A program made the position numbers and the translations under genes. Shown here one piece after another: positions 13,642 to 19,321 of a stretch of 64,000 nucleotides of DNA (its first letter is position 1; each line of letters begins with the position of its first letter). The notes beneath the pieces were generated by a model that was not told the DNA's origin, did not search any database, and worked only from the letters and a program-made list of their open reading frames with translations. This DNA is from Cellulomonas sp. S1-8 (lineage in GTDB: Bacteria > Actinomycetota > Actinomycetes > Actinomycetales > Cellulomonadaceae), in NCBI RefSeq assembly GCF_026184235.1, contig NZ_CP110806.1:2728001-2792000 (forward strand), in the 5' to 3' direction.

Positions 13642-13646
13642 GACCG

Positions 13647-13719
13647 TACCCCCGACCGGATTCGAACCGGCGCTACCGCCGTGAGAGGGCGGCGTGCTAG
13701 GCCGCTACACAACGGGGGC
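13647..13719 (-). tRNA. tRNA-Glu (anticodon CTC)
   Basis: The minus strand folds into a complete 73-nt cloverleaf. Acceptor arms GCCCCCG and CGGGGGT pair (one G-U), followed by discriminator A. The anticodon stem CCGCC/GGCGG encloses loop CTCTCAC with anticodon CTC. The T-loop TTCGAAT is standard. CCA is not encoded. It is followed by a strong terminator at 13610-13641. Confidence 0.97.
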
Positions 13720-13761: not shown

Positions 13762-13861
13762 CCCGACGTTCACCGCGAGGTGACACCTCGCGACGTCCGC
13801 GGGCCCGCCACCAGGGCGGACGCGTCCGTGCTGCTCAACCGGCTGCTGCCGGTGCACAACG

Positions 13862-13933
13862 CTGGGGTACCAGGACTCGAACCTAGACTAACTGAACCAG
13901 AATCAGTCGTGCTGCCAATTACACCATACCCCA
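13862..13933 (-). tRNA. tRNA-Gln (anticodon CTG)
   Basis: A 72-nt cloverleaf on the minus strand. Acceptor TGGGGTA pairs with TACCCCA, and the discriminator is G. The anticodon stem ACTGA/TCAGT encloses TTCTGGT with anticodon CTG, and the T arm is CTAGG-TTCGAGT-CCTGG. CCA is not encoded. No integrase or duplicated 3' end is found nearby, so there is no sign that this tRNA serves as an attachment site. Confidence 0.97.
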
Positions 13934-14571: not shown

Positions 14572-15816
14572 TCAGCCGACCGGGACGCGCGCACCCGGCG
14601 CGTCGGACCGCACCGCGGCCACCACCTCCGCCGCCAGGGCCGCCAGGCTGCGCCGCGCCGGCGAGCCCGGTGCGACCTCCCGCAACGCGCGGCCCTCGAG
14701 CATCGCGCTGTCCACGGCGGAGCGGTCTTCCGGGACGAGCACCACGTCCTCGACGCCCGCGTACCGCGCGAGGGCGGCGACGACCGCCTCACCCGGACGT
14801 GCCCCGGCGACCGTCGGCCGCACCCGGTTGACGACCACCCGCCGTGTCAGCGCCAGGCCGCGGTCGGCGGCGTCGGCGAGCGCCCGCACGAGCCGCTGCA
14901 CGCCGACAGGGTCGGCCGCACCGACCACGACGACGAGGTCGGCCTGCTCGAGCGCCGCGAAGGTCGCGGCGTTGCGCGCAGGGGCACGCGTGTCGTAGCT
15001 GAGCATCTCGTCCTGCTCGAGGCAGAAGCCGGTGTCGACGACCGTGACGTCCGCGAGCTCACGGGCCCGGGACAGCACCAGCTCGAGCGAGCTCGCCGGC
15101 AGCTCGGGCCAGCGGTCGGCGCGCGAGATGCCGGAGAGGAGCCGCAGGTCGGGCAGCACGACGGGCGCCAGCCGCGCGAGCGTGCGCAGGTCGAGCGCGC
15201 CCTGCCCCGCGGCGCGGGCCGCCGCGGCGACGCCCGGGGCCTCGTCCAGCACCCCCAGGACCTGTGCGACGACGCCGCCGTACGTGTCGGCGTCGACCAG
15301 CAGCGTCGCGCGGCCGAGAGCCGCCACCTCGGCGGCGAGGTTGACGGCAACGAAGGTACGCCCCGGTGCGCCCGTGGGACCCCACACCGCGACCGTCGCG
15401 CCGCGCCGCGTGGTGGTGCTCTCCTCCGGTGCCGGCGGCGGCACCGGAGGGGAGTCCCCGAGCACCGACAGGGCCTCCCGCACGACGTCGGGCACGTGGC
15501 CGTCGCTGTCGACGTCGACGACGAGGTCGGCGCCGTGCGCCGTCAGGCGCTCCGCCAGCCACGGGCGTGCCGGGTCACCCAGACCGACTACGCGCACACC
15601 GCAGCGGTGCAGCACCGCCACCGCCTCACGGTCCAGCCGTTCCAGGTCCCCCGAGACGACCGCCAGCCCGCCCAGCCCGGCCTCGGCGGCCGCGAGCAGC
15701 TCGGTGAGGTCGGCGCACCGCCGGGTGACGGACAGCCGCCCCCCGGACCCCTCGACGGCCTGCACGATCGCGGACTCCGCGGCCCCCTGGACCGCGCACA
15801 GCACCCCGACGCCCAT
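14572..15816 (-). CDS. CpaE/MinD-like ATPase with altered P-loop
   Basis: A 414-residue protein with a receiver-like N-terminal half (about 1-130), a Pro-rich hinge, and a C-terminal MinD/ParA-type domain. The family's deviant Walker A (KGGxGKT) appears as GPTGAPGRT followed by FVAVNLAAEVA: the P-loop Lys is replaced by Arg and the signature Lys is missing. LLVDADTYGG, VTVVDTGFC and LVVVVGAADPVGVQRL are recognisable later strands. CpaE proteins localise Flp/Tad pilus machines, and the preceding gene is SAF-domain like CpaB, one base upstream (TGA-G-ATG). No other pilus gene is near, so a pilus role is doubtful; ATP hydrolysis is uncertain. Confidence 0.78.
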   Translation of the reverse strand: MGVGVLCAVQGAAESAIVQAVEGSGGRLSVTRRCADLTELLAAAEAGLGGLAVVSGDLERLDREAVAVLHRCGVRVVGLGDPARPWLAERLTAHGADLVVDVDSDGHVPDVVREALSVLGDSPPVPPPAPEESTTTRRGATVAVWGPTGAPGRTFVAVNLAAEVAALGRATLLVDADTYGGVVAQVLGVLDEAPGVAAAARAAGQGALDLRTLARLAPVVLPDLRLLSGISRADRWPELPASSLELVLSRARELADVTVVDTGFCLEQDEMLSYDTRAPARNAATFAALEQADLVVVVGAADPVGVQRLVRALADAADRGLALTRRVVVNRVRPTVAGARPGEAVVAALARYAGVEDVVLVPEDRSAVDSAMLEGRALREVAPGSPARRSLAALAAEVVAAVRSDAPGARVPVG

Positions 15817-15817
15817 C

Positions 15818-16486
15818 TCAGGCGCCCGGGACCGGGACGACGTCGACCGTGCCGTCGCCGGCGAGCGCGCCGAGCACGGTCGGCAGGTCGTCGACGGGCA
15901 CGAGGACGTGGACGGTGCGGGCACCGCCGCTCGCGAACGCGCCGTCCGCGCTGCTCACCTCGGCGACCGTGAGCGCGGCAGCCAGCTCGCGCGGCGCCGT
16001 GCTGGCGGTGCGCTCCTCGGACGCCGCGCTCGTGTCGTCGCCGGGCGTGAACCACAGGTCGACGCGCGAGCCGGCGACCAGCCCCGTCGGGGCGGGACCC
16101 GACAGGGTCACGGGCACGGCCCGGACCGCGAGGTCGGCTGCGGACCCGACCGCCGCGACCGGGACGAGCTCGCCCGCACCGACGGACCGCAGCAGCACGG
16201 CGTCCTCGGGCAGCGGCTCGTCGGCGCGCAGGTACCCCTCGACACGATCCGCGAGCCGCACGTCGGCGACGACCAGCGCGGCGGACGAGAGCGAGCCGCC
16301 GGGCACGAGCACGTCCCGCGCCACGTAGACGGGCACCGTGCGCTGCGCGGTCGTGACGACCCAGCTGCCGAGCGCGACGGACGCGGCGATCAGTGCGACG
16401 CCGACGAGCAGGCGCGGGTCGCGCCACCCGGGACGGCGCAGTCGCGTGGCCGTCGGGGCGGGCAGGTCCAGCACGGAGGTGTCCAC
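15818..16486 (-). CDS. SAF-domain membrane protein (CpaB/RcpC-like)
   Basis: A 222-residue protein: cytoplasmic N-terminus of about 28 residues, one membrane helix (LLVGVALIAASVALGSWVV), then an extracytoplasmic SAF domain starting VPVYVARDVLVPGGSLS with the DVRLADRVEGYL segment. The C-terminal half carries a GLVAGSRVDLWFTPGDD-like second domain as in RcpC/CpaB. In Flp pili this protein lines the secretin; a Gram-positive cell has no secretin, so here it probably meets peptidoglycan or another envelope partner. GTG 16486 has a GGAG 5 bases before it. The coupled downstream gene is the CpaE-like ATPase. An 8-bp repeat array lies just upstream. Confidence 0.8.
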   Translation of the reverse strand: MDTSVLDLPAPTATRLRRPGWRDPRLLVGVALIAASVALGSWVVTTAQRTVPVYVARDVLVPGGSLSSAALVVADVRLADRVEGYLRADEPLPEDAVLLRSVGAGELVPVAAVGSAADLAVRAVPVTLSGPAPTGLVAGSRVDLWFTPGDDTSAASEERTASTAPRELAAALTVAEVSSADGAFASGGARTVHVLVPVDDLPTVLGALAGDGTVDVVPVPGA

Positions 16487-16496
16487 GGGGGCTCCA

Positions 16497-16532
16497 GGTC
16501 AGCAGGTCAGCGGGTCAGGCGGTCAACGGGTC
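16497..16532. repeat. 8-bp tandem GGTC array upstream of the SAF gene
   Basis: GGTC occurs at 16497, 16505, 16513, 16521 and 16529, exactly every 8 bp, mostly as GGTCAGC/GGTCAAC; a sixth GGTC follows at 16539 after a 10-bp step. The array begins one base from the GGAG ribosome-binding site of the SAF gene, so it lies in its leader or promoter. Confidence 0.7.
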
Positions 16533-16705
16533 GGGACGGGTCGTGACCCCGGTCGGGGGCGTCGGACAGGGTCCTGCACCGCCGGGACGGGCAGCTCGCC
16601 CCGTCCGGCGTGACGAGTGTGACGCGGACCGGGGTGTCGCGACAGGCCCGATGTGCGACCTGTGGACAACCGTCCGGGGCATGCCCGTCGTGCGAGACTT
16701 CCGGC

Positions 16706-16930
16706 ATGGCACCGAGGTTCCTGACCCTCGCCGACGTGTCCGAGATCCTCAACATCTCGGCGCCACAGGCGTATGCGCTCGTCCGTTCCGGCGAGCTGCC
16801 CGCGATCCAGATCGGCGGGCGGATGCAGTGGCGCGTCGAGTCCGCCGAGCTCGAGCGGTACATCGAGCGGATGTACGCCGAGACGCGCGCGCGCACCACC
16901 CACGGGGCGGCGTCGGACGGGACCGTCTGA
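16706..16930 (+). CDS. Small excisionase/BldC-type HTH protein
   Basis: A 74-residue MerR-like winged-helix protein of the HTH_17 group. The pattern FLTLADVSEILNIS, then AQ/PQAYALVRSGELPAIQIGG (recognition helix and turn) and WRVESAELERYIERMY is typical. It has no effector domain, like BldC of Streptomyces, which binds DNA direct repeats as head-to-tail oligomers. ATG 16706 follows GAGACT by 6 bases, so it may be leaderless; the longer frame from 16610 would add an unrelated segment. It could control the neighbouring divergent genes, where a 10-bp periodic repeat is found at 17567-17611 (inference). It could instead be a nucleoid-type protein. Confidence 0.85.
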   Translation: MAPRFLTLADVSEILNISAPQAYALVRSGELPAIQIGGRMQWRVESAELERYIERMYAETRARTTHGAASDGTV

Positions 16931-16968
16931 CGCCCGCGCCGACGCCCCCGTGAGAGCGGCGTCCGGCG

Positions 16969-17547
16969 TCACCGCGACACCACCGCGAGCAGCGCGGCGA
17001 ACGGCACGGTGGTCCACCGCCCCGCGGGGGCCTCGAGGGTCAGGTCGACGTGGTCGGCGCCCACCCGGTCGAGCCTGCCGGCGAGCGTCCCGGCGTCGGT
17101 CCGGACGGTCACGACGACCCGGTCACGCGCCAGGGCTCGCAGGACGTGCCCGAGCCCGAGGGCCGACTCCAGCCTCCCGGCGGGCGGTGCGGCCCGCGGG
17201 CCGAGCCCGTCGACCGACCGCACGGCGGCCGTCGGGACGACGGCTCGACGACCGGCTCCCAGGTCGAGGAGCAGCCACTGCGCGGCGGCCTCGGTCACCA
17301 AGCCCTCGAGCGGCTCGCCGTGCGCCGTCACGACCCGCAGCCGCGTGCCGATCGCGCCCCGGAGCCGGTCGGTCAGCGTCACGCGGGCCCGCTCGGCCCG
17401 GGTGAGCTCGGCCACGTCCCACCGGGCCTCGTCGGCCCGCCCGGCGGCGAGCTGCGCCTCGAGGTCGGAGAACAGCTGCTCCCAGCGGCCTGCGGGCGCG
17501 CGCCCGGTCCCGCCGTCGCCATCCACGGATCGGACCTTACTGGACAT
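16969..17547 (-). CDS. Conserved actinobacterial hypothetical protein, 192 aa
   Basis: Not recognised beyond being a soluble cytosolic protein. An N-terminal helix (WEQLFSDLEAQLAAGRADEARWDVAEL) precedes a beta-rich middle with two similar strands: GEPLEGLVTEAAAQWLLLDLGAGRRAVVP-like and AGTLAGRLDRVGADHVDLTLE-like. These short G-x-V-x-x-x-G/A-x-x-W/H-x-x-L patterns recall Sm/SH3-type barrels, but this is only suggestive. ATG 17547 follows a GAGGG ribosome-binding site. It is divergent from the LysM gene across a 77-bp region that holds a striking 10-bp periodic repeat, so both genes are likely to share one regulator. Confidence 0.65.
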   Translation of the reverse strand: MSSKVRSVDGDGGTGRAPAGRWEQLFSDLEAQLAAGRADEARWDVAELTRAERARVTLTDRLRGAIGTRLRVVTAHGEPLEGLVTEAAAQWLLLDLGAGRRAVVPTAAVRSVDGLGPRAAPPAGRLESALGLGHVLRALARDRVVVTVRTDAGTLAGRLDRVGADHVDLTLEAPAGRWTTVPFAALLAVVSR

Positions 17548-17566
17548 ACCTGCCCTCTTTCGACTA

Positions 17567-17611
17567 CATCTAGAGCCATCAGACTTCATCAAACGACATC
17601 AAACTGCATCA
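17567..17611. repeat. Five CATC direct repeats at exact 10-bp spacing in a divergent promoter
   Basis: CATC begins at 17567, 17577, 17587, 17597 and 17607; the last four are CATCA, and the units CATCAAACGA and CATCAAACTG share seven of ten bases. The array occupies most of the 77 bp between the 192-aa gene and the LysM gene and is far richer in A/T than its surroundings. A spacing of one helical turn puts every copy on the same face of the DNA, as for a cooperatively binding protein. Confidence 0.85.
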
Positions 17612-17624
17612 TCGAGGAGAACTC

Positions 17625-18596
17625 GTGACCGACCACCCCGCACCCCCTCGGCCAGGTGCGCCCCACCCCGCGCTCACCGCGGCCGGCCTGCTGCTCGCCG
17701 GTGCGGTGGCGCTCGCCGCAGCCGGGCTGCTCGGACTGTGGGTCGTCGACCAGGTCGGGTCCACCCGCCTGTGGCGCGTCGAGTCCGTCGTCGCGCCGGT
17801 CGTCGTCGCCGTCGGCGTGCTCGCCGCAGGCTGGGTCGGCACCTCCTCCCTCGTGGCCGGCGCCTGTGCGGGCGTCCGTGCGGCCGGCGGCGCCTGGCGC
17901 GGCGGCGAGGCCGCGGTGCACCGGTGGGCCCCGGGGCTCGTCCGCCGCGCACTGGCCGTCGCCGTCGCCGCAGGTGTCGGGCTCGGGTCCGCCGCCGGTG
18001 CGCACGCAGCGGAGATCGTCCCCGTCGAGCCGGGACCCGCAGCCGTGAGCGTCGACCTCGCGTGGACGCCCACGACGGCCGACCTGGGCGCCGCCGCAGC
18101 CGCCGGGACGGCGGTCCCCACGACTCCCGCCGGGCCCGAGGCGTCACCCACCGCACTGCCCTCCCCCGCCGACGCCGTCCCCGCCCTGAGCTGGGAGCCG
18201 ACGGAGCCGGTGGCGGCCGACGGGCCGCCACCGACGGCGGCGGCCGTGCCGACCCCCGCGCCCACCGCGGGCGGGACGGCCGCCGGCCCCGCGTCGGTCG
18301 TCCCCGTCGCCGCCCCGCTGCCCGCGCCGGCAGCCGTCGAGCCACCGGCGCCCGCACCCGCGCCCGTCCCACTGCCTGGCGGTCCTCCGGGACCGACCGT
18401 CGAGGTCCGGTCGGGCGACACCCTGTGGGGCATCGCGGCCCACGCCCTCGGGCCGGGCGCGTCCGACGCCGCGATCGCCGCCGAGTGGCCGCGCTGGTAC
18501 GCGGCGAACGCGTCGGTCATCGGGCCCGATCCCGACGTCCTGGAGCCCGGGCAGGTCCTGGTCGTGCCGACCACCGTCGACGGGAGCGCCCGATGA
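17625..18596 (+). CDS. LysM-domain membrane protein
   Basis: A 323-residue envelope protein. Two membrane helices lie near residues 15-40 and 54-75, and a third hydrophobic stretch near 102-125 ends in AHAAE. A long Pro/Ala/Val-rich extracellular linker (about 130-260) leads to a C-terminal LysM domain: VEVRSGDTLWGIAAHALG, WPRWYAANASVIG, DVLEPGQVLVVP. LysM binds peptidoglycan GlcNAc-x-GlcNAc. No hydrolase domain is present, so it should tether rather than cut. GTG 17625 has a strong GAGGAG 5 bases upstream. It is coupled by an ATGA overlap to the Rv3235-like gene. Confidence 0.88.
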   Translation: MTDHPAPPRPGAPHPALTAAGLLLAGAVALAAAGLLGLWVVDQVGSTRLWRVESVVAPVVVAVGVLAAGWVGTSSLVAGACAGVRAAGGAWRGGEAAVHRWAPGLVRRALAVAVAAGVGLGSAAGAHAAEIVPVEPGPAAVSVDLAWTPTTADLGAAAAAGTAVPTTPAGPEASPTALPSPADAVPALSWEPTEPVAADGPPPTAAAVPTPAPTAGGTAAGPASVVPVAAPLPAPAAVEPPAPAPAPVPLPGGPPGPTVEVRSGDTLWGIAAHALGPGASDAAIAAEWPRWYAANASVIGPDPDVLEPGQVLVVPTTVDGSAR

Positions 18597-19321
18597 CCAC
18601 CGTGCACCACGACGACGCCACGCCGACGACCGCCGTCGAGGACGCCCTGACCCGGCTGGACGTCGCGCCGCGGACGCCGTCGCCCGCGCGGGCCCACCTC
18701 AGCGCAGTCGACCCGCGTCCCGTCCGCCCGGACGCTGCGACCAGCGAGGTGGACGGTCGCGGCCGCACGGGCAGGGCAGGTCGTCAGGCTCGCGTCGCGG
18801 CCACCGTACGCGCCGCGGGCGAGGGTGACGGGGCGCGACCGCGGCTGCGGCTCGTGCCCGCACCGTCGCCCCTCCGTCCGACGCCCGCCCCGGCGCCGGC
18901 GCCCCCTGCGCTGCTCGCGGACCAGGTCCGGCGCCTCGTGGCGGTGGACCGGGCGCAAACGATCGACGACGACGACGAGCGGGGTGCCGCACCGCGGACG
19001 GATGCCGGCCGGTTCGCCCACGGTGTCGGGCTGGCGTGCGTCGAGGTCGTGCTGGGTCGCCGCCCGGCGGCTCAGCTCGTGCGGTGGGTCACGCCCGACG
19101 TCCTGGGGTCGTTGCACGACCGCGCCGACCTGGTCCGCCGCGCCGGAGTCCTGCGCCATGCCCGCCGTCCCACGGCACGACGCGTCCGGGTGTGCTCGGT
19201 CGACGCGTACACCGCCGAGGTCTGCCTGGTGGTCGACGACGGTGTGCGCGTCCGTGCGGTCGCGATGCGGGTCGAGGCGCACCGCGGTGCGTGGCGCGTG
19301 ACGACGCTCGAGATCGGCTGA
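18593..19321 (+). CDS. Rv3235 family protein
   Basis: A 242-residue cytosolic protein. The first about 110 residues are Pro/Ala/Arg-rich and disordered. The C-terminal domain (about 140-242) matches the Rv3235 pattern: AHGVGLACVEVVLGRRPAAQLVRW, SLHDRADLVRR, ARRVRVCSVDAYTAEVCLVVDDG, GAWRVTTLEIG. In Mycobacterium the family gene also lies close to secA1, as here. The function is unknown; a link to translocation is only suggested by position. ATG 18593 overlaps the LysM stop by four bases. It is convergent with secA (79-bp gap that holds no clear feature). Confidence 0.8.
   Translation: MTTVHHDDATPTTAVEDALTRLDVAPRTPSPARAHLSAVDPRPVRPDAATSEVDGRGRTGRAGRQARVAATVRAAGEGDGARPRLRLVPAPSPLRPTPAPAPAPPALLADQVRRLVAVDRAQTIDDDDERGAAPRTDAGRFAHGVGLACVEVVLGRRPAAQLVRWVTPDVLGSLHDRADLVRRAGVLRHARRPTARRVRVCSVDAYTAEVCLVVDDGVRVRAVAMRVEAHRGAWRVTTLEIG

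Follow-up and report, generated by a model that had tools for sequence, protein, structure and literature searches.

A 64,000-nt stretch of the Cellulomonas sp. S1-8 chromosome, here called the window, carries five copies of the word CATC between a gene without an assigned function and a LysM protein gene, naturally raising the question of what so regular an array does and which protein reads it. The copies start at 17567, 17577, 17587, 17597 and 17607, and the exact 10-bp steps described in an earlier note on this DNA were confirmed in the sequence, as were the two flanking genes and a 74-aa open reading frame encoded nearby (Table 1). A pattern of four CATC words in 10-bp steps, allowing up to 3 mismatches, gave 4 overlapping matches in the window, all inside the array and 2 of them exact; in 100 dinucleotide shuffles of the window the same pattern gave a mean of 0.14 matches and a maximum of 2. 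The region is also A/T-rich, as had been remarked, with a GC fraction of 0.65 in the bin 17500-17699 compared with 0.74-0.86 in most 200-bp bins between 15000 and 20000. A search of the 4.5-Mb genome for the extended core CATCAAACGACATCAAACGACATC, with up to 3 mismatches, hit two overlapping sites, both within the array, and the array is unique in its own genome.

Table 1. Features at and around the repeat array (positions in the window)
Feature	Position	Strand	Basis
CpaE/MinD-like ATPase, conserved neighbour	14572..15807 (5' end approximate)	-	CbiA 2.3e-5, 24.8 bits, under the 25.4 cut-off
Conserved neighbour, no family match	15818..16486	-	Pfam/NCBIfam searches, synteny
74-aa HTH_17/excisionase-family protein, candidate array binder	16706..16930	+	PF12728, TIGR01764, synteny
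Gene without assigned function, transcribed away from the array	16969..17547	-	Synteny
-35-like TGGACA, LysM-gene promoter	17541..17546	+	TGGACA in 20/23 aligned genus loci
-10-like TACATC, holds the first CATC	17565..17570	+	TACAYCT in 19/23 aligned genus loci; inferred from conservation
Repeat array, five 10-bp units CATCTAGAGC, CATCAGACTT, CATCAAACGA, CATCAAACTG, CATCATCGAG	17567..17616	+	Sequence, shuffles, uniqueness, conservation
GAGGAG, likely ribosome-binding site of the LysM gene	17614..17619	+	Sequence
LysM protein gene, proposed target	17625..18596	+	PF01476 LysM, 25.4 bits against a 20.9 cut-off
DUF6459 gene	18593..19321	+	PF20060 1.4e-27; overlaps the LysM gene end

The array sits in a conserved group of genes. 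Judging from their overlap, the LysM and DUF6459 genes are probably co-transcribed, and the gene that follows DUF6459 is presumably secA. The gene transcribed leftward from the array matched no family of Pfam or NCBIfam at E 0.01 or below, and the Pfam and NCBIfam searches made assigned no role to the LysM, DUF6459 or leftward gene. Further left, the conserved neighbour at 15818..16486 is one that we take to be SAF/CpaB-like, and the CpaE/MinD-like ATPase also has a TIGR03815 match, below cut-off. Many relatives share the order SAF-like gene, CpaE-like gene, HTH gene, unassigned gene, array, LysM gene and DUF6459 gene. Genes for tRNA-Glu and tRNA-Gln lie on the minus strand at 13646-13719 and 13861-13933, near a DUF6912 gene.

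Alignment of 23 genus loci (an additional locus of the genus, L021, was excluded) revealed a common layout in which TGGACA (20/23) is followed after 17-18 nt by TACAYCT (19/23), the repeats, a ribosome-binding site and the start codon. Because both boxes are kept at this distance, the first CATC is probably part of the promoter -10 element. Copy 2 is weakly kept in the same loci and copies 3-5 are well kept, units 3-5 (17587-17616) forming the conserved core; in the window, unit 1 overlaps the -10-like box and unit 5 reaches into the ribosome-binding site. A promoter consensus scan of the window passed no promoter, including at the -35-like and -10-like boxes. The leftward gene and the LysM promoter share sequence at 17541-17547, where the start codon of the former (17545-17547) runs into the -35-like box of the latter, and the promoters of the two genes probably overlap as well. 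Outside the order, one locus (L342) shows a layout near the textbook form, with TTGACA, 17 nt, TACACA and then AGCAAACGTAACCAAAC.

Comparison among relatives changed the repeat word itself. CATC, the word originally singled out, is indeed present five times, but the best-kept word is CAAAC: over 100 loci from 16 families the unit consensus is C-A-t-C-A-A-A-C-g-a, with CAAAC strongest. Variants of the unit include CACCAAAC and forms in which AAG or AGG precedes CAAAC, and two loci of family f13 (L154 and L155) have an altered 10-bp unit, CACGAACTGA followed by CATG(C/A)AATGA. In family f13 the wing of the HTH protein reads GGK instead of GGR.

These 100 loci were chosen from the best matches listed for the 74-aa HTH protein, to span families, and all are conditioned on the presence of the HTH gene. 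In the 1.3 kb that follow this gene, we counted CAAAC pairs separated by at most 45 bp. The spacing was 10 bp in 64 pairs, 20 bp in 6 and 25-43 bp in 18, and no pair in the 100 loci lay at any other distance below 25 bp, including 9 bp. A motif-free measure gave the same period: in the most A/T-rich stretch of each locus, lag identity was 0.383 at lag 10 and 0.345 at lag 20, whereas the remaining lags between 4 and 25 gave 0.222-0.273, and lag 10 ranked top among lags 5-19 in 72 of the 100 loci. Relatives in the genus and in the order have thus kept the 10-bp phase, and the loss of spacing that the earlier note had named as a refuting outcome was not seen.

To describe the spread of the array, each locus was scored on both strands. 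A forward array scoring at least 12 was present in 87 of the 100 HTH loci, with 8/100 in the reverse-complement control; score shuffles had a 95th percentile of 5.9 and a maximum of 15.5. The control count is largely real signal, since 8 loci hold reversed arrays: in the wider stretches of the 100 loci, 8 score above 12 on the other strand, 6 of them flipped only and two (L125 and, weakly, L186) on both strands. The flipped-only loci, L126-L130 and L185, account for 6 of the 13 forward misses. Among the remaining seven, L118 and L171 have 10-bp CAAA pairs by eye, L154 carries the altered unit, and in the examined stretch of L112, L145, L156 and L157 no array was present and the expression search returned no LysM match, that search being one that misses many LysM genes (it matched just 58 of the 100 loci). 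A plain-reversal control (74/100; also used in pattern searches) proved invalid, as CAAAC reads the same backwards, and the reverse complement and shuffles were used. Position is regular too, 151 of 175 CAAAC words falling 600-800 bp after the HTH gene.

Genome-wide scans led back to the same cluster. Within the order, 202 of the 396 genomes matched a two-unit pattern with at most 1 mismatch, a count that includes some chance matches, for instance in coding sequence. In a pattern search of 31 genomes, 9 had matches at more than one separate place, one such extra place being the array before the HTH gene in genus g89. When 84,980 species genomes were scanned for the exact three-unit pattern, 64 stretches came back, 28 actinobacterial by title and 36 other. 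All 28 actinobacterial stretches, which include Cellulomonas, Isoptericola, Xylanimonas, Oerskovia, Jonesia, Demequina, Arthrobacter, Kocuria and Oceanitalea, sit at this gene cluster, with the HTH gene seen in 26 and the other 2 ending before it; none of the cluster's genes was present in the other 36 stretches. The HTH protein itself reached E <= 1e-20 in just 134 of the 296 class genomes. Among readable loci from outside the order, 18 of 21 carry the array (from the 24 best-scoring HTH loci, 3 being too short), and in one of these outside loci (L347) it is plain.

Which gene does the array serve? We examined 20 further DUF6459 loci picked because the HTH or LysM gene looked weak or absent (one, L251, was cut to 835 bp). 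No LysM gene was found in any of the 20 by tblastn or expression search, and we argue absence mainly where tblastn also found none. Consistently, 19 of the 20 had no forward array scoring at least 12, so the array tracks the LysM gene. The exception, L264, scores 18.2 and retains an array-like remnant with both LysM and HTH absent; among the others, L259 scores 12.5 on the other strand and L261 and L263 score 11.1 forward. Family f19 (L253-L263) and the genus member G004 (L252) have lost LysM and the array and retained DUF6459, recognised in L263 by profile only. The HTH gene persists in 8 of the 11 f19 loci by tblastn, its product 30-59% identical to that of the window, and G004 keeps it as well. 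Retention without LysM or array implies that the HTH protein has, or had, other work, and in f19 it may serve a second role or be decaying.

The 74-aa protein is little more than one winged HTH (wHTH) domain, covering residues 5-55 (PF12728, 5.6e-15, 55.8 bits against a cut-off of 27; TIGR01764, 36.0 bits against 28.8). It had been introduced as a BldC-type protein. Its size and probable binding mode do resemble those of BldC, but its family match is HTH_17/excisionase: the sole PDB match up to E 0.1 is the phage protein Gp37 (4j2n), and a BldC chain is absent among the four PDB sequences listed up to E 10, on the assumption that BldC is present in that copy. The term BldC-type thus denotes a likeness here, and we make no claim of kinship with BldC. 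The protein has 5,159 relatives at E <= 1e-10; names, where given among the 120 listed, are generic, and the named close relatives among the matches listed are mostly Cellulomonas.

Several observations make this protein the best candidate for the array binder. It is the usual neighbour of the array. Within the genus it is kept and lost together with LysM (27 members with both genes, 6 with neither, 1 with HTH only and 2 of 36 not placed; Fisher 5e-6, uncorrected for shared ancestry), and its score declines together with that of the array (Spearman 0.71, n = 19, ancestry uncorrected, G004 excluded for want of LysM). The joint loss ties the HTH gene to LysM more than to the array, because the array vanishes wherever LysM does. 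Furthermore, in two genomes of genus g89 the same array CATCAAAC stands 65 and 74 bp upstream of the HTH gene itself (L122 and L123, scores 31.2 and 19.0), where it is likely an autoregulatory site. Upstream of the HTH gene, scores of at least 12 occur in 8 of 100 loci, compared with 1 of 100 inside the next gene, the six outside g89 being weak, at 12.4 to 15.4. Locus L382 covers the same place as L122.

The array could instead be a true promoter operator read by some different regulator, either an unlinked factor or a further protein of the HTH_17 type, with the 74-aa protein no more than a syntenic neighbour. We regard this as rather doubtful, yet some observations favour it. In four genus members the HTH gene lies 2.2-5.3 kb from LysM and the array is still at LysM; f19 and G004 keep the HTH gene without the array; and the recognition helix varies, from SAPQAYALV to SVGQVRTMV (G010), while the motif stays constant. 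However, HTH_17 paralogues (about 1e-11 to 1e-12) persist where genus members have lost HTH, LysM and array, and therefore do not track the array, the same array precedes the HTH gene in g89, and a single array in the window's genome fits a local regulator. Covariation of the unit variants (CAT, CAC or AAG-AGG before CAAAC) with HTH residues was also considered and was not convincing; the differences run along family lines, with none prominent in the recognition helix, and the comparison was treated as uninformative. In the window's own genome, a second small HTH_17 frame occurs near 3.28 and 3.37 Mb (L388 and L389) in the same local sequence, about 89 kb apart, representing either a recent duplication or an assembly repeat.

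The proposal of a promoter operator made of direct repeats, with a nearby small HTH protein as candidate binder, thus draws support from phase, conservation and synteny. With fair confidence, we infer binding of the 74-aa HTH protein to this operator, its assembly there into a filament, and repression of the LysM-DUF6459 operon as the outcome. In this view the array would serve as an operator at the DNA level that spans the operon's -10 box, start site and leader. Each 10-bp unit would be occupied by one molecule of the winged-helix (HTH_17) protein, and several molecules would line up head to tail along a single face of the helix. Every protomer would read the A-tract of CAAAC together with its flanking C, and the resulting filament would keep RNA polymerase off the LysM promoter. 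The leftward gene also begins inside this 80-bp stretch and, for that reason, may come under the filament's control. Of the control over both genes proposed earlier, only the link with LysM has comparative backing, whereas control of the leftward gene is plausible from the overlap of its start codon with the -35-like box.

The orientation of the array is not fixed. Relative to the LysM gene it is reversed in L126-L130 of family f7 and in L185 of family f17 (genus g51), and two separate inversions, one in each family, are probable. Inspection by eye places the flipped array of 4 of 6 f7 loci inside the promoter spacer, with a -35-like box on one side and, about 17-18 nt away, a -10-like box on the other, as in L128 with TTGATG, 17 nt and TATCGT. 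A filament of the HTH protein on such a spacer-located array would likewise block polymerase. These reversed arrays, some of them inside the promoter spacer, argue that the array is a DNA operator and not an RNA element.

The same f7 loci bear on a further alternative, in which the HTH protein on the array would activate transcription or load onto polymerase, instead of repressing, through a MerR-like twist of the promoter or AlpA-like antitermination. Passages of PMC5859096 and PMC9371919 place the action of MerR proteins and the AlpA element between the promoter boxes, just where the flipped array sits in 4 of 6 f7 loci. Nevertheless, among genus members and the loci inspected beyond the order, the array covers the start site on the downstream side of the -10-like box; MerR promoters have spacers of 19-20 nt, compared with roughly 17-18 nt, as judged by eye, in f7; and a terminator scan of 17450-17700 found no terminator-like site. 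Activation or antitermination is, in our judgement, unlikely. It is very improbable that the repeats work through the RNA of the 5' leader, for instance by binding a protein or by controlling the ribosome. The core units do lie downstream of the -10-like box and reach the ribosome-binding site, as such an element might, but the arrays are reversed in f7 and in g51 of f17, those of f7 stand upstream of the expected start site, the repeat follows a 10-bp helical phase, and an Rfam search of 16500-18000 gave zero matches at the gathering threshold. Chance or simple-repeat slippage, which the short units and the five copies in one genome might suggest, is refuted by the shuffles, the order-wide phase and the recurrence outside the order.

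Beyond repression of the LysM-DUF6459 operon by the HTH filament in this genome, a broader picture can be drawn, whose truth we hold to be evenly balanced. A wHTH protein of about 70-90 aa, polymerising on a strict 10-bp CAAAC array at essentially one promoter per genome, would form, with that array, a dedicated pair present in much of the class that controls the LysM envelope operon adjoining the presumed secA, and in separate lineages the polarity would have flipped and the position slid from the start site to the spacer with the target unchanged. If this is true, the flipped and relocated arrays are a natural series for how a wHTH filament reads DNA. With many natural variants of a short regular array and a candidate partner at hand, the effects of spacing, polarity, position and the number of copies are open to direct testing, and the operator provides a handle on the LysM, DUF6459 and leftward genes.

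An oligomeric wHTH protein on a direct-repeat operator is a known kind of system; the present pair, its target and its spread are absent from the open PubMed Central literature searched, in which a full-text search found nothing on the locus, the motif or the regulator, one listing of 10 among 21 records being judged by titles and the openings of abstracts. Passages of PMC5859096, PMC6428758, PMC7498355 and PMC11963761 describe small wHTH proteins (BldC, Apl, RdfS and Xis) that assemble cooperatively, in head-to-tail fashion, on direct repeats spaced by one turn. AlpA of Pseudomonas, according to passages of PMC9371919, acts as one molecule on a single 6-bp element inside the promoter spacer, leading to antitermination. 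The f7 array resembles this element in its placement inside a promoter spacer and differs in being a repeat array. Pukovnik Xis (PDB 4j2n), Apl and RdfS are presented in passages of PMC7498355 and PMC11963761 as small proteins of the HTH_17/excisionase type or similar. Apl of phage 186 is described there as binding repeats 10-11 bp apart and repressing two promoters from an array between them (PMC7498355), and RdfS as occupying about 10 bp per molecule on tandem direct repeats (PMC11963761). Like these recombination directionality factors, as far as those passages describe them, our locus combines an excisionase-type protein with tandem repeats about one helical turn apart. Those factors work with an integrase in phage or mobile-element excision, whereas ours is a conserved chromosomal locus, and no integrase was present among the seven neighbouring proteins examined.

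Another close comparison is with BldC of Streptomyces, a wHTH-only protein of 68 aa which, in the passages of PMC5859096 and PMC6428758, binds direct-repeat sites of variable copy number in promoter regions, each repeat being an A/T-rich element plus C, with the whiI and smeA sites running opposite ways. The crystal structure described there places protomers on 9-bp repeats, and the smeA tracts are reported as one helical turn apart. Its sites are degenerate and, according to their authors, not bioinformatically predictable (PMC6428758), and its regulon is pleiotropic. On the evidence of those passages, the array differs from BldC sites in its phase of 10 bp rather than 9, in a well-kept CAAAC word and in occurring once in the window's genome. 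What it shares with them is a small wHTH-only candidate protein and a direct-repeat site of variable number, in either polarity, in a promoter region.
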